Shown here piece after piece: positions 1,230-64,000 of a stretch of DNA of 64,000 bases. This DNA comes from Thelephora terrestris (lineage: Eukaryota > Basidiomycota > Agaricomycetes > Thelephorales > Thelephoraceae). The position numbers and the translations under genes were made by a program. Each line of letters begins with the position of its first letter. The stretch's first letter is position 1. The stretch covers positions 1,364,001-1,428,000 of the forward strand of contig WIUZ02000006.1 in the NCBI GenBank assembly GCA_015956445.1. Reading direction: 5' to 3'. The notes beneath the pieces were generated by a model. The model did no database searches and was not told the DNA's origin. It saw only the letters and a program-made list of their open reading frames with translations.

Positions 1230-3100
1230 TGAGTGTTGTGTCGACCACATTCTCATGGCCATTCTTGAGGTCAGAGTAGTGAAGCTTGAGGTCTTGGAGA
1301 TTCGGGAAGATTCCAATGAAATACACGATCTGTCGGGAAGAGCCGATCGGCTCGCTGAGGGCAAGGAACCGAAGTGTTGGTGAAAGGTGTTCGAAGTACT
1401 GTCGAAGACCCGGAATAGAGCTGGATACCTGGAGATTATCTATTCCAAGTTCCTGAAGGTTCTTGAGTGCAGAAAAGTAATACAGGTTGCGTCCACTGAG
1501 ATCTTCAGGAGTGAACCGGTGTTGCGACGTCAAAACTCTCAATCTCCGATTCCTTCCTATTGGTCGTTCGACTCCATTGAGTTCCGGACTCTTCTTGGCC
1601 TCGCGACTGCCTCAAGGCAACCTTCACCCTGATCACCGGACCGCCTCTATTGTTCCTCGAACGTTCTTCCCCGCTTCGCATCTCCTCTCGGGAACCCTGT
1701 TTCGAATCCTCGTGTTCTGCCATCTGCCACACACTATCCGACCCTCCGGAACTCTGATATCCCCGACGCCTCGTTCCCCTCACCTTTCAACCTCATTTCA
1801 ACTCTCGTTCTAGCCCTTCGCCATCGCTATCTATTGTTAGCGATTCCTCCCGCCATCGATCTCCGGTTATCCCATCGTTCTGCGCTCTCGTCCCCACGAT
1901 TCCTTATCGATCGGAACTTCCCGGTCGATCGATCAGTTCCATTCCCCGCGCTGTTCCGTTCTCCGGGCCTTTGCCTCCGTTGCTATCTTCCGCTCTTGAT
2001 TCCTGTTCCCCTGCGTTTTCTCCTTTATGACACGGCTTCCTCTCGTGCCGTCGTCACCCCTTCGTCATCGTCCCTGTAGTTACTCAGCCTTCGTCATCGT
2101 TCCCCCCTAGTAGTTACCCCTCTTACCCAGCTCCTCTTAGTTTCGCTTTTCCGTTCCCTTCTCTCTCCCAGACTATCTCGACACTGCCTATTTAGGAGAG
2201 TCTTTGGTTTCCTTTATATACTGTGTCTTAGATAACCTGGAATGCATCGACTTAGATCCCCCAGTTCAGTTTCATTCCGAGTTCTCCAGTTCTCCGGTTC
2301 GCTCTCCAGTTCTCAAGTCAAGTTCTCGGCTTCTCTGTGTCTTATCTCTTGCTCCTACCAAAGCCTACCTCAGCTACTTTACGACTTCGCGGTGATTCTC
2401 TATCGCAACTCTCCGCAAACTCGGTTCCTACCCCCTCTGCTTTGTCTTGAATCTCGCGCTTTACTCTAGTCGTCGCGGTCTTCCCCGGCGATTCTCCAGA
2501 CATTTTCGGGCATCTCTGAACAGATCTTCTGTTCCGGTGGTCGTACAGAACTCAACACTCGACCGGTACCCACCTCAACTGCTTGTACACTCTTTTTAGG
2601 GTATCCGACTACCTGGAGTGTTCAGCTAGTTCACCGGCGGCCATTATACCAATGGCGGATCCGAAATCGCTTGACAAGTCGAAGTAGACCAAACTCGTAC
2701 ATTTTTTCAAGCAGTCCAGGCCACTGATAGTTTTTGTCCTCTGAGGCATAGGGGGCCTCGTCTGTTGTGAGGGAGTAATGAAGGTGGGAGATGGTGGCAA
2801 GGTACCACGAACGACAAGTCAGGGAGCATGCTAGGAGATTTCGTATGTCGCAAATGAAGTAGGAGAGAATCTCCTCCACGATTTCTTGCGGCAGCTTGCC
2901 GAACGGAGATGGGCGAACGATGGTCGTCCTAGACGCCTTCGTGGCACCTGAACTGAACAAAAACTTGATTTTTGCTTTTGTTCGGTACCAAAGTTGGCTG
3001 AGAATCGATCGGTTCGCTACAGAAGTGTCAGCGAACACCACGATTAGACGAAACGATGAGATGCAGCTTGAATAAGCACCTGTGAACGAGGACATGTGTG
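1230..3100 (-). pseudogene. F-box protein gene copy 1, split by a solo LTR and 3' truncated
   Basis: Seen: two minus-strand pieces align end to end with the intact F-box gene at 34707-36219. The N-terminal piece (about 3100 to 2634) holds the F-box core GKLPQEIVEEILSYF and LACSLTCRSWYLA. The second piece (about 1519 to 1230) holds NLYYFSALKNLQELGIDN and SRQIVYFIGIFPNLQDLKL. Between them sits a 1.1 kb insertion with LTR-like ends. Homology stops at about 1230, just after the codons for VDTTL, so the C-terminal half is missing. Established: F-box proteins bring substrates to SCF ubiquitin ligases through Skp1. Inference: this copy is dead twice over, by insertion and by 3' loss. Confidence 0.85.
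1520..2633 (+). mobile_element. Solo LTR (copy A) inside the F-box pseudogene
   Basis: Seen: the insertion begins TGTTGCGAC and ends CTAGTTCA, so it has TG..CA ends. It is flanked by CCGG at 1516-1519 and 2634-2637, and removing the element plus one CCGG rejoins the F-box gene. It is 1114 bp, pyrimidine-rich, with a TATATA at about 2216. Copies at 44419-45518 and 47191-48201 start TGTCGTGAC or TGTTGTGAC and also end CTAGTTCA. Established: unequal LTR recombination leaves a solo LTR with one target duplication. Inference: a retrotransposon with a 4-bp target duplication left these; no gag or pol is present in the window. Confidence 0.8.
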
Positions 3101-3379
3101 TCCCTTTCCACAGATGTTGTTGTGATCGTGAGTTTTTGCAGGGGAGAGTGCGGTTGTGGCGAATCTTTCCGGTGGTGGAGTGGTGTGAGCTGGGAAAGGT
3201 CAGTCTGCTACTAGCCGTTGGAGGTGGGGTGATGATAAGCCTAAGTACCACGATCGACCCAGCTCAGCGGCGAAACCCGCCTGGCCATATTGACTCTTTC
3301 AGTGAATTGTATTCGACGAGAACAAGTGAATTCCCTAACGTCTACTATCCTTTTATACTGACCCACTCGTATACTCGTC

Positions 3380-4290
3380 TAGCGATTTATTCGGCATTCC
3401 TCCAAGAGTGCATTGCCCTAGCAAGGCACTGGAACAGCCAGGGCCCTACCCTCTTCCCCACCGACACGGACTTCAACCTCACTCTCTACGACGAACACGC
3501 CTCGAGCGTCTCTTCCGCCTCCCCTTCGTGATGCCCAAGCGACCAGAGGCGTATCGTCGCTTGAAAAATCTCTATCCAGTCTGCCATCGACTTCGTCCGT
3601 TTCCGCACGGTCCCGGACCAACAACCGCCTGCTGTTATCAGTCCCATCGTGAGCTAGGTCTGCGTTCTTCCCGGATAGCCTCGCGGTGAGGATGCGTTCA
3701 AATCAGCAAACGCCATACTTGCACTCCTCGAGGACGAGGGCATTACAGCCGTGGACATCGAATTCCGGAATCGATGTTCGGGCGCTCAGCGGGTGCAGAG
3801 CTCTACGAACCTGCCTCGGACCTGGATGTAACCAGGCAAGTTATTGACCCTCTCACTACTGCGCTTGGACTTCCTATCGCTGCCGCGAATACCCCTTACT
3901 TCCCGGGCACTATGGGTTTCTACTTCAAGCTTCAAGGACGACGACGACTTCTACGGCGTCACGGCCCGCCACGTTCTCTTCCCGGATTCTTCTCCTATGC
4001 GCGCGAGTACATGGCCAACCAGACTCACCTGGACTCGATTGAATGGACAATCCTCCCATACGACAACGACTCAGGCGCGTTCTCCACGGGGAGAGTACGG
4101 GTCGATGATCGCCTCCGGCACTGGCAAATTCTGCGGCCTACTTACTGGTGGGTCTGGCAAGACGGAGTCGTTGGATACCACTTATGCCACGCCGATGTTC
4201 TGGCTCCGACTCATCATCAAGGCCAAGTTTCCCGATGCCAACCTCTACGGCTTGGCGAGCCGTTTCGCTTCGTTTGACCACAAAAGCATA
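3380..4290 (+). pseudogene. Frameshifted remnant of a conserved fungal gene of unknown function
   Basis: Seen: protein-like segments alternate between frames, including RSAGAELYEPASDLDV and the stretch to PGTMGFYFK from 3774 in one frame, then DDDDFYGVTARHVLFPDSS in another. Several stops interrupt any single frame and no introns restore it. Established: I recall long Agaricomycete hypothetical proteins with a RSAGP..LLEP segment followed by a VTARHVLFP motif; the His-containing motif looks vaguely like a serine-protease fold, but I would not assign activity. Inference: a pseudogene of that family, with only the N-terminal half left before the sequence becomes unrelated. Confidence 0.5.
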
Positions 4291-4368
4291 ATGAATTGAT
4301 TGAAAATTGTCTGATTTTCGCCCTGAGTCTGAGCGAGCAGTGCCATAAATACACAGAGTTTCGATGCT

Positions 4369-4902
4369 TTACTTCTTCTCGGGGTCAGAGCCTGTGCCGG
4401 AAGCACTAGTGATGCTGGACGGGAGATAGCTCTGAAGGAGAAAGCGACAATCTCCAATGTAAATTATAGTGCGTTTACAGAAACAAGAAACCCCACCTTC
4501 ACGGTGTCGATGGCAGCTCCCAAGTACGAGCCCCCGACCGCGACAGCCTCTTGGACATCCCGCTTTCCCTCCTCTACCGCTCCTTGAGTCTTCAAACTCG
4601 CGTCGTGTTCAAGGTTATCAAACGCTTGGGATGTCTGAGTGGTCCTATCGGTCGTGCCCGGGGAGAAATGCTGAATCGAGGGATTGTACTCAGCATCGCA
4701 AACAGAAATTGAAGAAGATAAGAAGACATACGAGAGCGGCGGCAGCAGCCTGTTTAGCGGCCTCAGCTTCTCTACGAGCGTTCGTTTCCACTTCATCGGA
4801 AAGTTCACGAGTCGACGCTTCGGCCTTGGCCCACTGGGCGGTCGTCTCCCAAGCCTCATTCGGGGCGTCGGGACGAGACTGGATCGGGTTCTCAGATGAC
4901 AT
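4369..4902 (-). CDS. Small Ala/Glu-rich helical protein, function unknown
   Basis: Seen: ATG at 4902 opens MSSENPIQSRPDAPNEAWE, then a strongly charged Ala/Glu/Arg helix (ELSDEVETNARREAEAAKQ). A GTATGT..GAG intron follows (about 4675-4730), then an exon with KTQGAVEEGKRDVQEAVAVG, a second intron starting GTGGGG near 4490, and a short last exon SYLPSSITSASGTGSDPEKK with its stop at 4369-4371. The product is about 130 residues. The pattern resembles LEA-like or small mitochondrial/stress-associated helical proteins, and the SYLP..T..S tail is reminiscent of fungal OM14-type proteins, but I cannot confirm either. A GC-rich upstream region with GTGACGTCAC at about 5083 may be its promoter. Confidence 0.6.
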
Positions 4903-5080
4903 GGATTGTAGAAAGGTTAGAGTAGACGGTGGTCGCTGTTTGGAGACGAATCGATGAAAAAGTTGTGCTTGTGGGTTATGGAGGAGTTGTAGCGTTGGAA
5001 CACCTCTTATTTATACATGGATCCTCGGAGAGGGGCTCCTCCTTTACAGCCACTCCCGCTCGTGGCGCCGAAAGTTAACT

Positions 5081-5092
5081 GGTGACGTCACT
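5081..5092. promoter_or_regulatory. CRE/ATF-like palindrome upstream of the small helical-protein gene
   Basis: The sequence GTGACGTCAC is a near-perfect TGACGTCA palindrome about 180 bp upstream of the ATG at 4902. Established: bZIP ATF/CREB factors bind TGACGTCA, in fungi often for stress genes. A regulatory role here is inference. Confidence 0.35.
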
Positions 5093-5152
5093 CGAGGCCA
5101 AGCGGAAAGGAAGGCGGGCACTGGGCAGCAGCAACTGAGCAAGCGGTGGCGC

Positions 5153-5494
5153 GGTAATGACGCCATGGAACTCATGTCCTAAGTTGGAAGACTACCGAAT
5201 ACGTAACAACAGTGAGGTGATGCTCCCGATGATGTGTCCGCGCAGTTCAGAAGACGGAGACATAGCGAATCACAATCTAAATTCCCAGGGATCAGGCCAG
5301 GTCGACGCGCCACGGCTCGAGCAATTAAAACAACAAGGCCCCCTCCCTTACGGTCGTGGGGAAAAGATTATTGGCGGAGCGAACTGGGCGGGTGGGCGGG
5401 AGCATTACTGTAACGGGAGTAAATGATGGGAGTTTCCCACGAGTGCTCCTCCTAGGAATAATTTAAAATGGCGAGGGAGCGATGAGACGTGAAG
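5153..5494. repeat. Local repeat R, copy 1
   Basis: Begins GGTAATGACGCCATGGA and includes ACGTAACAACAGTGAGG, then ends near ATGGCGAGGGAGC (5468-5480) and AGACGTGA. The same ordered motifs recur at 6695-7043. The two copies bracket the small membrane-protein gene and the glycogenin fragment, so this looks like a dispersed local duplication or a short non-autonomous element. No clear terminal inverted repeat was seen. Confidence 0.55.
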
Positions 5495-5626
5495 GTGTCA
5501 AGATCAGATCCTAGACGCCGGCGGAATTCTTTGATCACCGACCCACAAACGATATCACGAAAATTTCATTACAAATGCATTGCTAGTTGATTCCGGAACC
5601 CTTGAGGATCCTGGATCCGCCTGCTC

Positions 5627-6187
5627 CTATCCTCCCCTCGATTTTTCCTGTGCATCGCGCGCGTGCAACTGTTCTCTACAGTTGATTATTTCCTTCTCAA
5701 GCTCCTGCGCCTTGTGAGGCTCATGGACATTGCTGTTGGACTGGAATACTTACATACAAATCCTTCTCCATCTGTGATATTTCGTCACGAGCAACTTGAA
5801 GGACTGCAGCGAGTCTAGGGGGACTGTGGAAGAACCATCGGGTTTCTGACCCATTCTCTTGTTGGTATCGCTCCAAGCCTCGACGACACCTATGAAACGC
5901 ATCAATACGTGCACCAACAAACACAAGGGCGGAACTCACTTGCGGCGAAGCGTTTCAATCGCTCCCAGCCTCCCGCTCAGGCCTTCCGCTAGAGCAACGA
6001 CCCGGCAGTCCGCAATGCGATTAGATACTTGACGCAGTCGATCAAAGCACGGGGCCGTCTGGCCATCAACTGTGTGGTGTCGTTTGACATAACTTTTGGC
6101 GACGAAAATCAAATCGCCGAAAATGTGATACCATATGAGGGCAAGGAGGATGACAAGGATTTCGGAAAGACCAATTTGCAGGGGCAT
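5627..6187 (-). CDS. Small protein with one N-terminal membrane segment, unknown function
   Basis: Seen: ATG at 6187 starts MPLQIGLSEILVILLALIWY, a hydrophobic helix at about residues 5-22, followed by a basic loop (KSYVKRHH). Exon 1 ends at ..GAIETLRRK with GTGAGT; after a roughly 50 bp intron the second exon encodes RGLERYQQENGSETRWFF, and a third exon encodes EKEIINCREQLHARDAQEK, ending at 5627-5629. The product is about 155 residues: a membrane anchor followed by a short charged helical region. Splice sites are canonical and frames agree. I do not recognise the family. It lies between two copies of repeat R. Confidence 0.55.
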
Positions 6188-6477
6188 GGGAGGCGAGTGG
6201 GGAACGAGGGGGAAGAGAGCCGGCTTCGTTTATAAGGCTTCAACTTATGGTTGGGGGAGGGGCAGCTTGAACCAAGAACCTCCGAAAGAGGACAAAGGCC
6301 TTCTTGTTTAGGGGCCTTCCCAAGGCTCGAGGACTGCGTAATCGAAGACCTGAAGACTTGCCGCGTAATCTTCGCCGGTGATTACAGTACCCCCAGGCAA
6401 CTCCTTCCGATCGCGGGTTCCCTAGCTGGCTGGCCAGGGAATATACACACTGATTAGGGGTTCTCGCGCCGTCGCAC

Positions 6478-6696
6478 AACCTGGCACAATACGGGGTTTC
6501 TCCTCCCACGGAAAGATGGGAGCCACTTTCAAGCGATCGGGTGTTGGAGAACTCCACTGCCCGTTCGTAGGCTTAGTGACACTAAGACAAAACTTCGCGA
6601 ACCAGATCTCCTGGAATTTTGGCTGGCACGGGGAGCTCGAAGAACGGGCCTGACTTAGATGACCCACTGTCGCTAGTAGACACGGAGACGTCGGTG
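6478..6696 (-). pseudogene. Duplicated internal fragment of the glycogenin gene
   Basis: About 215 bp closely match the part of the glycogenin gene at 8188-8400: both encode TPDR.KVAPIFPWEEKPRIV and contain runs such as GAGCTCGAAGAACGG. It is flanked by unrelated sequence and has no start, stop or splice context of its own. Several codons differ and a stretch is altered, so it is a non-functional fragment. The downstream copy of repeat R begins immediately after it. Confidence 0.75.
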
Positions 6697-44235: not shown

Positions 44236-44618
44236 TGTCAGGGCCACTCTACCCCAACAACTACCAGTGCACTGAGCTGACTCCGCAGAGTACTCACTAG
44301 TCCAACTAGCTTGTGAGAGAACGATCACGTCTCTATTCTTCCGGTAGGTTGTCCGAGGTCACTGCAAGTCAGGTCGAAATCCTAAAGGGAAACCCAACCT
44401 AAACCGTACTTTGTTCGGTGTCGTGACCGTATTTCGGACACTATCCGGAATCGCGACCTTCTCTCGACTATCGATAACCGCTGCGCGAGGTCTAGATGAC
44501 TTCCCTCAGCATTCTCGACTGTCCCGACAAGGACTCGCCTGTCCCTTTGCTTCGCTACACTTCCCTCTCTCCTTATCCCCCTTCGCGACATCGCGACGTC
44601 CCGACGTTTTCCCCTTTA

Positions 44619-44759
44619 GACCTGCGACCTGCGACCTGCGACCTGCGACCTGCGACCTGCGACCTGCGACCTGCGACCTGCGACCTGCGACCTGCGACCT
44701 GCGACCTGCGACTTAGACCTGCGACCTGCGCCCCCTCAGCCCGCGACCTGCGACCTGCG
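44619..44759 (+). repeat. Heptamer tandem repeat GACCTGC inside LTR B
   Basis: About 14 near-perfect consecutive GACCTGC units, a short break (GACTTAGACCTGC..CCCCCTCAGCC), then more units. The related LTR C has only a few diverged copies (GCAGGTT units, 47950-48010), so the array expanded in copy B or in its recent parent. Confidence 0.92.
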
Positions 44760-45097
44760 TTTCTTAGTATTTAGTATCCCTAGGACTTTGTTTCCTTCAC
44801 ATTCCCTCCCGATCACGTCCCGATCAGTCCCGATTGTGTCCCGACTTTTCAGTACGTTTTATATCTTTAGTTCTCATCTCCCTATCTCCATTCTCTGCGT
44901 CCCAATCACGTCTCGATCGATCACCCTGCTTGCGACTCTAGGCCTCCCTCTGGTTCACTTTCCAACCACATTCCCTTCCTTTGCTGTTTCCTTCGATCCC
45001 TCGCCTTCCCTATGTCATAGACGCGTCATTAGGTCTTTTGACATCATTTTGGTTCGTTCCCTTTGGTTCCTTCATTCTCAGAGTCCCCAGTAGTGTA

Positions 45098-45105
45098 TAT
45101 AAAGA
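45098..45105 (+). promoter_or_regulatory. TATA box of LTR B
   Basis: GTATATAAAG in the LTR sense strand, about 670 bp into the LTR. LTR C has the same site in inverted position (CTTTATATAC at about 47603-47612), as expected for a retrotransposon promoter. Confidence 0.5.
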
Positions 45106-46718
45106 CTCCTGTACTTGATAGACCAAGCAATCAATCAGCAGCGTTCCCTCTCTCTCTTCCTCTCTCTCTCTCTCTTCTGAGGCCTAGCAGCGTTGCTACG
45201 GTCCTCCCTTCGGTTCCCTCGTCGTCTCGCCCTTGTTCTTGTTGTCCCTCTGGTCTCTCATGTCCCGCTGGTGTCCCAATTTCTGACTCTGTTGTCCCGA
45301 CGTATCCCGATGTTTCCCTTTGTTTGTTATCGGTAGTTTCGTTCTCTGGCTTTCCCGTTGTCCTCCGCCTCGTTCTCCCGTTCGTATCCCGACTTTCCCT
45401 CTTGCTGTTCATTCGCTTCCCGCAGATTCCCTAGAGGCTCACGCCTCTGAACCGAGGACCCGACCTTCTAACTGCCATCTCTGCCCTCTCGGACTCCGAA
45501 GGCTTTGTGGCTAGTTCATCGGTTTAACCAATAAGGGTTTATCCCTACAACAGAATTGATGACTCCACCAGTTGATCGACTGGACGCTCGAAGTGTTCTA
45601 ATATGAACGCTGGGGTTCTATAGTTACGAGGCGCAGTTGACGCGCAGAGCGGGAGGGAGAGCAGATGGGGATGTCTTGAATCAAACAAGAAACTCTGACT
45701 TGGCCTTAACTGCAACTGGGCTGAGAAGGGCAGAGGATTTCCTGAGGTAACAAAACTAAGGTACTACGATACAGCCACAGTTGCTACTTATACTAAAGGA
45801 GTGGCCATGACGTCAATACCCTAATATACCCTTATCAAGCCGGAACAAAGGGAGATAAGGAGTGTGTGAACGCTAAGTAAGGGAAGCGAACAAATATAAC
45901 GCGTGGGAGAATAAAAGACAAAGGGCCTTACTAGCGTGTGAAGGATTGCATAAGAGATAAGAAATGTCCGCATGAAACATAGGGGTAAAGATAACACTAG
46001 TCCTAAAAGAAATAGGGGCATAGGGGTCATTAAAGTTCGTACCTGGGGATCACACCCAAGGGTCAGGTGGAAACCTCTCATTGCTTCATGCAATTTTCGA
46101 GCAGCTCAGAGATAAGGGACCATGCATCATCCCTTGTTGTCTGTAGGCGGTAACAGCATCATGGACTAGTGGCAACCTCAACGTACGTCCGAACATGAGG
46201 AGGTCGGGCATAGACTCATGGGACATGAGGGATTACAGATTCACCGGTGTTTCACACTAGCAGCTACTCCACATTTGCTGGGCTAAACAAAAGGAGTCTA
46301 AGGCACTCCTTCCGAATAACGGCAATTCCTTCCTCCGGTTAGGAGACTGTGATGTGACTGTCCACGTGTGTGATCAGGGTCCAGGGTTGATCGTAATCGT
46401 AAAGTCATGAGGGGTCGTAAAAGGGGGTTCGTGATGTCATAAAGGGGTCATCAGGGTCTTGAGACCTATTTTTAGTGCGCGCACGTTCTAGGTGTTCTGG
46501 AACGAAGTTCTTCCAAGGCCGTCCTGCGGGCTGAGGTGTCAGCTTGATGTAGTAAGCCAACGATGATGGTACAGGGGCGGAAGTTGATGTGACCCAGACC
46601 AATGAGGTTTGTCGAGGTAGGTCACGTGAAGGATCACCAATCTAGGCTATAAGAAGGACGTCTTCTTGGAGCCATCCTTGATCAGCAACACCAGCAACTT
46701 CCCCATCATCTTACCAAC

Positions 46719-46850
46719 ATGTCTTTCCCAAACAACCACACCTACAAAGTCGCCAACGGCATCTCCACCATCTCTCGCATTGACCGTCATGCCGCTGCTC
46801 GCAAGACCTATGCCTGTGCGGCGGGGACTCACTATACCACTGATGACCAG
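46719..46850 (+). pseudogene. Orphan first exon of the element gene (element 2)
   Basis: Encodes MSFPNNHTYKVANGISTISR..TTDDQ (44 codons) followed by a GTATGG donor, nearly identical to exon 1 of the gene in element 1 (61908-61777). The later exons are absent because homology stops about 20 bp into the intron. TATAAG at 46648 and the leader are retained. Confidence 0.8.
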
Positions 46851-46870
46851 GTATGGGGGAGACCTAGAGC

Positions 46871-58888: not shown

Positions 58889-60170
58889 ACAATGTATTGA
58901 TCAATATTTCTTGTGTCTCGTAACAGGAGCGGCAAACCCCTTCTAAATACACATTTGCCATTCCCTTATACGTGCTTGAAACTGGGTGTCAAAGATGTTG
59001 CCTGTGCGATACGTTATGGAGTGGTGACAGGTATGTTTTTGGAATTGTGGTTTCCTCTTGAGCACATTCTGTGTGCTCTCAGGACCTTCCTAATTCCATA
59101 TTTATTATTTATTGCAGAAATACATGACAGTACACCTCTCCATCCCCCAGCTCTTCACCCCCCAACTCTCTGCCCGACCATGCCCTGCGTATCATCCTCA
59201 GATTCCAGCACCATTTCACGCCATCAAGCGGTTACAAAGCAGGCACCCAAGCTCGCCACCAACAAGACACTCACTTTCTGGCAGAGGAGGACCCAGACAC
59301 GAAGAGCGAAGCGCGTCCTCACTGCGGGCGACCGTCTTCTTCGAACAAAGAAACAAGAGCAGGACCGCCTTGAATACCTGGACGCATTGGAGGAAGGACA
59401 CGCCGTGATACGAGGGCTTGCTGAAGGACTTAGGAACCAGTTTGGGAAGTACAGTGTGGATCACTACCTCAATGTCCTGATGCACCGAGCCCATACGTCG
59501 CGTTCAGTGAGGAAAGTAAGTGGGTGGAACGTCTACCAAAAATTTGAGTTGGAGAGAATGAAAAGTAAGCCACCCACAATATATCTGTGGACCCACTAAC
59601 ACGCACTCTCCCAGACGCAGCTGGTAGCGACGTGTCCCAGATCAACCTGACCGAAGTCAACAAGCAGATCAGTGAAAATTGGAAGGCCCTCTCGCATGCA
59701 CAACACGAGGACGTCACTGCCGAGTGGATACAGAGGATTGAAGAACAACGCAAAGGTAAAAAGCTTGCGGTACATAGTGCGCCACTCAACGCATTTCACG
59801 ATGTGAGGAGCACATTGCAATCTATTGAGGTTCAGGTAATACAATACAAATCTATTGGCCTACATGCTCTAATGTTTCCTAGTTGGCACAGCTGCACGCA
59901 AGAACCAGACTTGAATTCTTGTTGGTGGCCTGCCGGTCTGCCACAGAAAGTTTCACCAAGCCTTTCGTGTATTTCTCAAGTGTGTCAGGAACATGGTATT
60001 TTTAAAAACTTTTTATAACACGCTCTTTCTTCAAACTCTTCTTACCACTTCTTATGTTTTGAATGCTTCACACTCCTTATCCTTTACACCGATCCTTCAA
60101 AACACACAAACGCGCTTACATTCACGGCAATACGGAACAACAAGGCTATACTAATGCTTATACAACGTCC

Positions 60171-61908
60171 TCAAAAGTCGACTCTATCTACGGCAGGCCT
60201 GAAGGTCATCAACTGTCCATCCCGGAGATCGTAGTGCTGGCCCCTCCTTGCTAGGACCTCCCCGAACATGGCGTCACCATCTTCGGCACTTAGCTGAACG
60301 ACTAGTTCAAGCCGATAGGAAGAGATGCCTTCGAGCGGACCGACCAGCCTCCCAGATGTCACCGAACTGCTGAACACCTGGTCCCACATCTCCATCACCG
60401 GGTGACTGCTCGACAGCACTATCGACGTAGTCGGCGAGCGACCCTCCATCTCCCTCATCGGACCCCTGGGTGGGATCCTGCCCTGCAAGGCGAAGCTGGT
60501 GTCGGAGTTGGATCTCGGACTTGACCTGTCGGTAAGGACGGTGGACCCGATATCGGAATCCTCGCTCCTCACCTCAACCAGACTCGTCACCATCCGACTC
60601 AACTGGTCGAGGGTAAGGATTAGCCGACGCGGTCATACGATGAGCAGGACGGCGTCGAGAGCGCTTGCAACGTTGCCCCTTAGTCACCAGACGTACCTCG
60701 GCGACCCTCGGAGCATCTTCAGCTCGGTCAACCTCCATGACCTCGTCCTTGATCTTCACCAACTGATGGATCGGCTGCAAGACGCAGCGCCCACAGTTCT
60801 CCTTGTCGGAAGCGGCCAAGGTGGAAGCCGGACCTGGAGTCGGAACGGGAACCGCGTTCTCGATCGGAGGCGTCGCATAGGACGACGGGTTAGGCGATGG
60901 GAGTACCACCTCGTCGGCGTACTCCAACTCGAACGGAACATCGGCCGTCCCTTGACCAACCAATTTGGGACCCTCTTTACAGTTACAGGACTTGTCCTGC
61001 AAGGACTCGACCTGCGCTGTCAACACGGCCACCACGTTCTCGAGTTCTTCAGTCTAAAAGAAGTCTCTCAGTTATTGCATAAACCTGCAAAGGCTGAAAG
61101 CACCTTTTCATCCCTCCTGGCCAACGCCCCCTTAATGTTGTTGTCCCGAACCTTCAACCCAGCAATCAACTCTTGATGATTGGCGACCATCGCCTCCAAT
61201 GCTTCGTTCGTCCCCTGCTGGAAGGCAGCTAAGGTCTCCTTCATTTGAAGACCCTCTGCGGACAGACGAAGGATGTCTGCCTTCGCTTCCTTTACCTCCC
61301 GCTCCAACCGTTCAACCTAGGCAGTCTGATTAGTCGAGAGTCATACTCGAATATTCAGACAGAAAACCTACCCGGCTTTCTCCCTCCCGAACGAGCGACC
61401 AAAAAAGGCTAGTGGAAGCGGTAGCATGGCGGACAGCCCTAGGAACGGTCGCTCCATGCTCCAATAGGTCCTGATCGTAGATTCCCCTCTGCAGGGTATA
61501 CCAGAGCTCCTTTTTGATCGGATGCTCCAGCTCCCCGAACCTACCCCTCATCTGGAAGGCTACCTTCTCCGCGATGATCGTACAGACCCAGAGCTTGTCG
61601 TCCCAGGTCAACCCCATCAAATGAGGCATCGTCTCCCTGAGACGTTCGGCGTCCACTTCCGTGACGACCTCCAAGATCTAGAAGCCGTTAGTTTGACATC
61701 AACGCCAAAAGAACGTTCCTCTACCTAGAGGAAGGCGTTAGTGCAAAACATACTAAGCTCTAGGTCTCCCCCATACCTGGTCATCCGTGGTATAGGGAGT
61801 CCCTGCAGCACAGGCATAGGTCTTGCGGTTAGAGGCACAACGGTCAATACGAGAGATGGTAGAGATGCCGTTGGCAACTTTGTAGGTATGGTTGTTGGGG
61901 AAGGACAT
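60171..61908 (-). CDS. Coiled-coil acidic protein carried by element 1
   Basis: Seen: exon 1 61908-61777 (MSFPNNHTYKVANGIS..TTDDQ), exon 2 61677-61372 (ILEVVTEVDAERLRETMPHL, DDKLWVCTIIAEKVAFQMRG, ELEHPIKKELWYTLQRGIYD), exon 3 61316-61104 (coiled coil VERLEREVKEAKADILRLSA, FQQGTNEALEAMVANHQELI), exon 4 from 61053 (TEELENVVAVLTAQVESLQ, SCNCKEGP, a Pro/acidic stretch, CGRCVLQP, APRVAE), exon 5 starting LSRMVTSLVEVRSEDSD and ending FRPAVDRVDF at 60171. All junctions GT..AG, frame kept, about 480 residues. Not recognised. Exon 2 looks like a small helical domain, perhaps DNA- or protein-binding. No nuclease or polymerase motif. Exon 1 and the promoter are duplicated in element 2. Confidence 0.72.
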
Positions 61909-61972
61909 GTTGTGGTAAGATGATGGGGAAGTTGCTGGTGTTGCTGATCAAGGATGGCTCCAAGAAGACGTC

Positions 61973-61983
61973 CTTCTTATAGC
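61973..61983 (-). promoter_or_regulatory. TATA box of the element 1 gene
   Basis: Minus-strand GCTATAAGAAGGACG lies about 70 bp upstream of the ATG at 61908. The same block with the same spacing is present in element 2 (46647-46657). Conserved promoter within the family. Confidence 0.6.
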
Positions 61984-64000
61984 CTAGATCGGTGATCCTT
62001 CACGTGACCTACCTCGACGAACCTCATTGGTCCGGGTCACATCAACTTTCGCTCCTGTACCATCATCGTTGGCTTACTACATCAAGCTGACACCTCAGCC
62101 CGCGGGACGGCCTTGGAAGAACTTCGTTCCGGAACGCCTAGAACACGCGCGCACTAAAAATAGGTCTCAAGACCCTGACGACCCCTTATGACATCATGAT
62201 AACGATCAACCCTGGACCCTAGAACACACACGTGGGCACGGGGTATCAACATTTGGACACTGTGCTTCTAATCGGATAGTAACCCTATCTGATCTAGTTG
62301 TGCTTTGGAAGCAGAGTAGGCCCAAGCCGAGAACGGCGGCCGAAGAATATAATCCCTGGTGCCACTTAGGAAGAACGATATTCCCGGGTGCTATGCCTAA
62401 TCAAGACTGGGTCTGATCAAGCGATTACGGTTGCAACTCCCAGGTTACTGCCTGTCCGTTGGTATCATACCACCTACCGACAACAAGGGATGTGTAGAGT
62501 TCCTTCGATCTCTAGCCAACCACAGAAGCTCAGAGACGGTGCTCACCTGACCCTTGGGTGTGGTCTAGATTCAGGTACGAACTGTCATGACCCATGCCCC
62601 TTTTTCTTTTAGGACTAGTGTTATCTTCACCCTTATGTTTCATGCGGACATTCCTTATCTTTTATGCAATCCTTCACACGCTAGTAAGGCCCTTTGTCCT
62701 TTATTCTCCCACGCGTCATATTTGTTCGCTTCCCTTACTTAGCGTTCTCACACTCCTTATCTCCCTTTGTTCGGACTTGATAAGGGTATATTAGGGTATT
62801 AACGTCATGGCCACTCCTTTAGTATAAGTAGCAACTGTGGCTGTATCGGAGTACCTTAGTTTTGTTACCTCAGGAAATCCTCTGCCCTTCTCAGCCCAGT
62901 TGCAGTTAAGGACAAGTCAGAGTTTCTTGTTTGATCCAAGACATCCCCTATCTGCTCTCCCTCCCGCTCTGCGCGTCAACTGCGCCTCGTAACTATAGAC
63001 TCTCAGCAGTCATATTAGAACACCTCGAGCGTCCAGTCGATCAACTGGTGGAGTCATCAATCCTGCTGTAGAGATCAACCCTTGCTTGTTAAACCGAACG
63101 AAGTGCGGTTTAGGTTGGGTTTCTCTTTAGGATTTCGACCTGACTTGTAGTGACCTCGGACAACCTACCGGAAGAATAGAGACATGATCGTTCTCTCACA
63201 AGCTAGTTGGACTAGTGAGTACTCTGCGGAGTCGGCTCAGTGCACTGGTAGTTGTTGGGGTAGAGTGGCCCTGACAAAGTGAAATCATCAAAAAATTCTT
63301 GAGCACGTTGCTGAACCGATCAGTTGAAGACTTCACACTCCAACTCGAGGCATATGTCATGTCCGGTATCAAAGGTGTGGCTTGCCTGTCGCCAGCAGGT
63401 GCTGCCACGCAATTTTCTAATGGGTTCTTCATAGGCGTTGTTGAAAATTCCAAGGCGCAGACTCTAGACCTCAAGAAAAGGGTTGCCACGGTGATTATTG
63501 AGAAGCTGCGTGAGTGTGAAGCATTTTTGTTTTTCATATTTTCCAACATAAATTGTCACCGGTGATCGCAATGTTCACATGCAGTACGATTGATTTGATG
63601 ACCTCATCACTGAGAAGCACGACGTTGTCGTCAAAGGCTGGCCACTGGCCCAATTCCGCAACCCAAGCACTGCCGCCACTCGCATCGACTTGGAGGTCCT
63701 CATTAATTCTTGGCAATCAGGGACAACTCGGTTTCAGAAACTCACTAAGGATGAAAAGTGTGCCTGGAAGGAGGAACATTTTTCATCCCGAGTTGCAATG
63801 ATGTCATCACCGCCACCCTCCGCTTCCATTCCAACTGCTTCTTTACCCACTCCCGACACCACCTTACATATCTCATCCGCTTTCACGCAACCCCCAGGTC
63901 CAGTATCCCCTATTCCCATGCCAACTGAGATGGTACTATTCTCCAAGCTCACCAAACAGAATATCTCACAACCTGCTTCAATCACACCATCGACTAATCA

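Follow-up and report, generated by a model that had tools for sequence, protein, structure and literature searches.

A chromovirus solo LTR in Thelephora terrestris and the putative intron-containing gene on its antisense strand

Introduction

Retroviral long terminal repeat (LTR) sequence is in some cases used for an accessory protein, as with sag of mouse mammary tumour virus (MMTV) and HBZ of human T-cell leukaemia virus type 1 (HTLV-1), the latter being antisense. Solo LTRs and chromoviruses are familiar, as are extra open reading frames (ORFs) in LTR elements, some of them reverse-oriented (for these ORFs, accessible parts of PMC6317226 and PMC5408684). Here we describe a 3294-bp insertion in a 64,000-nt stretch of Thelephora terrestris DNA (the window). 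It is the solo LTR of a Ty3/gypsy chromovirus. We hold it very probable that it was left by LTR-LTR recombination of a Tf1/sushi-like element and that its U3 holds a divergent, antisense, intron-containing gene. MMTV sag and HTLV-1 HBZ concern other elements and other proteins, and are likened to this gene by LTR location, not by homology.

Among the systems compared, Tf1/sushi chromoviruses share with the full-length relatives of this LTR the gypsy domain order, a C-terminal chromodomain, a Tf2-1-type SH3 domain, 5-bp target duplications and self-primer complementarity by the left LTR. In contrast, the LTRs here measure 2.9-3.3 kb and carry the putatively spliced antisense gene, and membership in the group is proposed from the SH3_Tf2-1 match and primer complementarity. 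Plant LTR retrotransposons (eORF-5'R, eORF-3'R and others) have extra genes, some reverse-oriented (accessible text of PMC6317226), whereas the present gene lies in the LTR, contains introns and is kept in two families. The Cassandra terminal-repeat retrotransposon in miniature (TRIM) includes gene-like sequence within its LTR, related to 5S ribosomal DNA (accessible text of PMC10853983), but the element is non-autonomous and the sequence is the promoter of an RNA gene, not a spliced protein gene. LTR retrotransposons of bdelloid rotifers have numerous solo LTRs and have captured ORF3s specific to each family, among them a type labelled CC (in our reading, coiled coil), but the accessible text on them shows no LTR-embedded gene (PMC5408684). 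In the literature searched, with most subscription papers outside its scope, no fungal LTR is described as containing a spliced protein gene on its antisense strand. LTRs are usually regarded as DNA that supplies a promoter and a terminator. With a constrained antisense protein gene that bears introns, solo LTRs become possible gene copies rather than inert scars.

Results and discussion

Positions given below are those of the window unless a contig label (C12, C23 and so on) precedes them. The insertion (59983..63276, on the plus strand with respect to the gag-pol transcript of its full-length relatives) starts with TGTCAGG at 59983 and finishes with CCTGACA at 63276, a terminal inverted repeat of 7 bp. 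Inspection of the flanks shows the target duplication AAGTG on its left (59978..59982) and right (63277..63281). Once the element and one AAGTG are deleted in silico, the host reading frame becomes continuous across the site, and an uninterrupted paralogue covers the same host site at C12:3374794-3375120 (65% identity over 109 aa, no stop). A preliminary description of this locus was thus right to fix the edges by the duplication and by an exon restored in frame upon removal; it also rightly saw a mobile insertion with one gene, no transposase inside and no terminal direct repeats. The last feature is explained by the whole copy being one LTR. The edges are not due to chance: 23/23 inspected insertions (19/19 solo, window included, and 4/4 full-length) share these ends and are flanked by a perfect duplication of 5 bp, all 23 duplications differing from one another; other copies thus carry consistent duplications, as that description would require. 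Seven partial copies in the fetched loci, with one end missing or cut off, were excluded from this count.

Genome searches with the whole 3.3-kb unit found many copies (best 39 of 639 candidates scored), and those with its last 351 bp revealed pairs and one triple at 8.4-9.3 kb spacing (best 40 of 435 candidates scored). On C56 two identical LTRs (3300/3300 bp) surround an interior of ~6.0 kb, and on C12 two identical LTRs (3301/3301 bp) form a direct pair around gag-pol. C23 carries a tandem LTR-interior-LTR-interior-LTR array (L011-L013, C23:1029462-1051374) with the outer duplication CATCA, and C4 an LTR pair around a shorter interior. Each of the C56, C12, C23 and C4 sets is bounded by one 5-bp duplication, respectively CTGCC, GTGCA, CATCA and ATCAC. 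The interior gag encodes a zinc knuckle, the gag domain itself being just below the Pfam cut-off. Pol is an open ORF of 1252 aa, truncated where the fetched locus stops, in which Pfam positions give the order protease, reverse transcriptase (RT), RNase H, integrase, Tf2-1-type SH3 (PF24626 SH3_Tf2-1) and chromodomain; its best solved-structure match is Ty3 Gag-Pol. The order from protease to integrase is that of Ty3/gypsy elements, and the position of the chromodomain after integrase (PF00385, ORF positions 1168-1217, whole-protein E-value 1.5e-16) is that of chromoviruses. TG...CA ends with a short inverted repeat, a duplication of fixed length and a direct pair around gag-pol are likewise the marks of LTR elements. 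Since paired LTRs flank gag-pol in the full-length relatives, the window feature is therefore a chromovirus solo LTR.

The preliminary description had argued for an undescribed class of element and dismissed an LTR element for want of terminal direct repeats. Neither view survives: the same genome contains full-length relatives in which a pair of such LTRs encloses gag-pol, and a solo LTR has no direct repeats. The longer relative with an integrase between the same ends that it had envisaged does exist, in the form of these elements; as the ends belong to an LTR element, the new class in substance falls, while the gene-carrying part of the proposal stands. A new non-autonomous DNA transposon bearing a cargo gene, perhaps related to Ginger and its gypsy-type integrase, would agree with the 7-bp inverted ends, the 5-bp duplication and the lack of a transposase in the window copy, and the ends share the pattern TGTNR with those of Ginger (accessible text of PMC2836005). 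However, the same 3.3-kb unit forms direct LTR pairs around gag-pol, full-length elements that already refute a DNA transposon, and the inverted repeat of 7 bp compares with tens to hundreds of bp in Ginger: about 40-270 bp in Ginger1 and 50-180 bp in Ginger2, with 4-bp duplications, those of 5 bp being given only for TDD-4 and TDD-5 (same source and extent). We attach practically no credence to this reading. A Ginger transposon was rejected on the 7-bp inverted ends and on the RT encoded by full-length relatives, Transib on the CAC-type ends that the preliminary description gives for it, those here being TGTCAGG, and a new DNA transposon class on the full-length LTR pairs.

Self-priming is the mechanism described for Tf1/sushi elements (accessible parts of PMC6317226 and PMC10085805). 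In the LTR, a TATA-like TATAAG on the plus strand (62823..62828, 27/28 aligned copies) is the putative sense promoter for gag-pol. The putative self-primer TAGTTTTGTTAC, predicted 5' end of the element RNA, lies on the same strand 34 nt past the TATAAG start (62857..62868, 28/28 copies) and can pair with the primer site that full-length relatives possess. All five interiors read begin with GAGTAACAAAACTACC, whose complement pairs with TAGTTTTGTTAC over 12 nt; among 1000 first-order Markov shuffles of the LTR, a 12-nt match arose in 3 and an 11-nt match in 4. The second family of these elements, presented below, has a different interior start, the complement of which finds an 11-nt match in the LTR of that family, 35 nt past the start of TATATAAG (a match given without shuffle control). 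In both families the paired primer site starts 2 nt beyond the left LTR. A primer site next to the left LTR with which the predicted RNA 5' end can pair is a mark of Tf1/sushi elements. The pairing kept with changed letters in family 2 provides good support for self-priming, and the parent element looks self-primed like Tf1/sushi elements: its RNA would begin ~34 nt past the first base of the TATA box, and the first nucleotides of this RNA would pair with the site 2 nt beyond the left LTR and prime reverse transcription. The purine-rich AGGAAGAGG immediately precedes the right LTR in the five interiors.

On the opposite strand, codon-phase analysis of 24 distinct LTRs delineates a gene of five exons and 494 codons. 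Constraint is expressed as the ratio of nonsynonymous to synonymous differences per site (pN/pS). All exons are on the minus strand: exon 1 with its ATG at 61908 (61777..61908; no indel and GT-AG in 28/28 copies; pN/pS 0.05), exon 2 (61372..61677; pN/pS 0.09), the Leu-rich exon 3, taken for a coiled coil in the preliminary description (61104..61316; pN/pS 0.02), exon 4, placed by codon-phase analysis and the 28-copy alignment (60378..61053), and exon 5 with the stop codon (60171..60328; frame and splice sites in 28/28 copies; pN/pS 0.19 over 60340-60171). For exon 2, the 150 best-scored of 597 genome matches are all without a stop, a count biased by being taken from the best-scoring matches. 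A TATA-like CTATAAG (61976..61982, minus strand), the putative antisense promoter, is situated 73-74 nt upstream of the ATG in 27/28 copies; the one left unscored, L025, did not match the start-codon pattern. A coding length of exactly 1485 nt and GT-AG at all four introns are found in 28/28 aligned LTRs (23 distinct coding sequences), and indels are present in the flanking noncoding parts and, as the first gene model has it, in two of four introns. The gene is open in 24 of the 28 copies (15/19 solo, 9/9 LTRs of full elements). The four with an internal stop, window included, are all solo, and the window stop at codon 377 in exon 4 (60574-60576) is common to three copies. The single five-exon gene described initially is thereby retained, with its last boundaries shifted by the comparison of copies (exon 4, 61053-60378; exon 5, 60328-60171). 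Our first gene model, with exon 4 spliced at 60697 and the last exon in another frame, was dropped after the codon-phase analysis; the homologue search and one alignment used it. An automatic splice search over-fitted small 3' exons and was left aside.

The 253 pairwise comparisons among the 23 distinct sequences give a mean pS of 0.232 and a mean pN of 0.0245, that is a pN/pS of 0.106, the highest single pair reaching 0.18. Codon-periodic variation switches frame at the introns, and for exons 1-3 and 61053-60697 of exon 4 pN/pS is low in the coding frame only, the other two frames being above 1. In four full elements, pS of 0.10-0.19 and pN of 0.003-0.016 in gag and pol stand beside pS of 0.18-0.23 and pN of 0.008-0.019 in the LTR gene, which is constrained about as well as gag and less than pol. 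One could propose that there is no protein gene and that the frame stays open only because LTR DNA is constrained for other reasons, given that noncoding LTR parts are well conserved among young copies (introns 2-6% divergent, last 430 bp 1-2%). The codon periodicity, the frame switches at introns and the low ratio confined to the coding frame, a pattern that recurs in exons 1-4 of family 2, leave this proposal scarcely believable.

The same divergences show a contrast within the LTR. Between four full elements (L009, L011, L014, L016) and one solo LTR (L018), divergence in the LTR gene is 10-23% at synonymous sites and 2-6% in introns, against 1-2% in the last 430 bp; introns and R-U5 are far less divergent than synonymous sites. 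Simple recombination does not account for this contrast, because exons and introns interleave, and CpG accounts for no more than part of it. The wider noncoding 3' side of these LTRs differs by 1-2%, but by ~12% from the C23 element. A synonymous hypervariability special to the LTR gene was considered and dropped, as pS is similar in pol and gag between the same elements.

Variants shared by at least 2 of 22 copies are mostly synonymous (S229:N62), singletons less so: S109:N89 in 18 solo copies and S27:N11 in four full elements, for a neutral N:S expectation of 2.4-2.8. The simplest reading is strong constraint during element movement, relaxation after insertion, and a mixture of both in solo copies. 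If constraint relaxes after insertion, selection probably acts on the moving element. The share of four-gamete conflicts is 18% at distances within 10 bp and climbs to 78% at 301-1600 bp, where free assortment would give 85%; LTR copies are therefore mosaics.

Alternatively, the antisense gene might be a captured host gene kept by fungal use, in other words domesticated, with LTRs as mere carriers. This would fit the 257 annotated member sequences, by sum, in 71 T. terrestris clusters (some of them fusions or fragments, and most unplaced in or out of an LTR) and the open frame of 15 of the 19 aligned solo copies. Yet solo-copy singletons are much nearer neutral than shared variants, and the family-2 homologue is likewise inside an LTR, so that we regard domestication as quite improbable. 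Whatever its role, the LTR gene accounts for a few hundred annotated 'hypothetical proteins' of T. terrestris.

This homologue came from a profile search (best 8000 candidates scored, 101 proteins found) in the form of P0100, a T. terrestris protein 30% identical to the LTR protein; between families, LTR-gene proteins are 30-33% identical. The family-2 element L033/L034 has LTRs of 2934 bp, 99.9% identical as a pair, and the duplication GTTTT. P0100 had 1398 genome candidates, the best 87 of which were scored; its gene is antisense in both LTRs of one family-2 element, as verified on the sequence, and for two further elements (C23 and C5, loci unfetched) spacing and strand relative to a diverged gag agree with the same arrangement. 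Exons 1-4 of family 2 display pN/pS of 0.06-0.08, again with a low ratio in the coding frame only; the 6-7 copies compared include partial ones, and four had been fetched as best matches. Exon 2 contains two stops among these copies, and the presumed exon 5, with pN/pS 0.52, is not clearly in frame. Gag has diverged to ~32% identity between families; the family-2 homologue being antisense in LTRs, the gene stayed in the LTR during this divergence. Beyond the named T. terrestris proteins, homologues were found only on contigs under 4 kb (best 8000 candidates scored) and, for the family-2 protein, on one contig of 4.2 kb. LTR-gene pieces on short contigs (P0075-P0083 and P0085-P0099) are 57-94% identical to P0003, and some of them may derive from related, unsequenced fungi.

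As to copy number, a pattern of the U3/R junction has 394 genome matches with up to 3 mismatches allowed, and the LTR-primer-site junction has 8, all exact although 3 mismatches were permitted; reversed controls gave 0 in both cases. Gag matches locate at the same 8 elements and at three diverged ones (20/20 candidates scored). The 8 interiors, for 5 of which both LTRs were read, explain ~15 LTRs, three in the C23 tandem and two each for the other six. By subtraction, ~379 of the 394 LTR sites are solo, truncated or beside a lost junction, and those without an intact LTR-primer junction exceed interiors by ~47 to 1. The identical LTR pairs of C56 and C12 indicate that the element moved recently. 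On C45, the solo LTRs L020 and L021 are identical over 3297 bp; since they lie on opposite strands with different duplications (GGGTC and GCTTG), they are probably two recent insertion events. In L026 (C23:504001-514000), a family-1 solo LTR (3177-6478, duplication ATAAC) is nested in a family-2 LTR.

These numbers bear on the idea that the gene product restrains the element, through copy-number control or self-silencing. A precedent for restraint by an element-derived protein is the Ty1 restriction protein p22, and the excess of LTR sites without interior (~47 to 1 by subtraction), each able to express the protein in trans, would suit such a role. On the other hand, if an element without the gene were freer to spread, the constraint seen on transmitted variants would be less easily understood, and the element moved recently regardless, as its identical LTR pairs attest; restraint thus appears unlikely, if less so than domestication.

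We rather suppose that the LTR protein serves the element, and an accessory factor acting on its expression, silencing or spread seems somewhat favoured by the pattern of constraint. In the proposed scheme, U3 would drive transcription in both directions, of gag-pol to the right and of the LTR gene to the left. The antisense introns would remain unspliced in genomic RNA and so persist through every copying cycle, when a sense intron would be lost: introns can survive retrotransposition because the gene is antisense to genomic RNA. As a general rule to be sought elsewhere, intron-bearing retrotransposon genes should lie antisense to genomic RNA. Since the gene sits in the LTR, a full element has two copies of it and a solo LTR one; recombination between the two LTRs of an inserted chromovirus would delete gag-pol and leave one LTR with the gene. 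More tentatively, and with doubt prevailing, a chromovirus clade of Thelephorales may have long kept a spliced antisense LTR gene in two ~30%-identical families, dispersed by LTR recombination to hundreds of copies, with a protein acting in trans against silencing or for spread.

Several points weigh against this picture of a functional LTR gene. Pfam matches of the LTR protein are weak and all below cut-off, those of its Leu-rich central segment being, also below threshold, to coiled-coil families only; six matches to solved structures have E-values of 0.21 or worse, none supporting a function. Transcription, splicing and translation of the gene are deduced from sequence. The gene model is less certain towards its 3' end, because the exon 4 stretch 60602-60540 is weakly constrained (pN/pS 0.53) and public annotations terminate the gene differently. 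The 28 aligned LTRs, of at least 394, were picked by similarity to the window, which favours intact copies, and pairwise pN/pS values are non-independent, the copies being recombinant. Finally, solo-copy singletons are still below the neutral N:S, so some constraint after insertion may persist.

Two minor features of the window can be added. The host gene interrupted at ~59180-63990 has paralogues elsewhere in the genome, one exon having 13 matches, 2 of which are the interrupted gene itself. A second, broken copy of the LTR is found on the minus strand at 44236-46870, matching only LTR positions 1775-3294 and split by ~1.1 kb of other sequence at 44420-45518.

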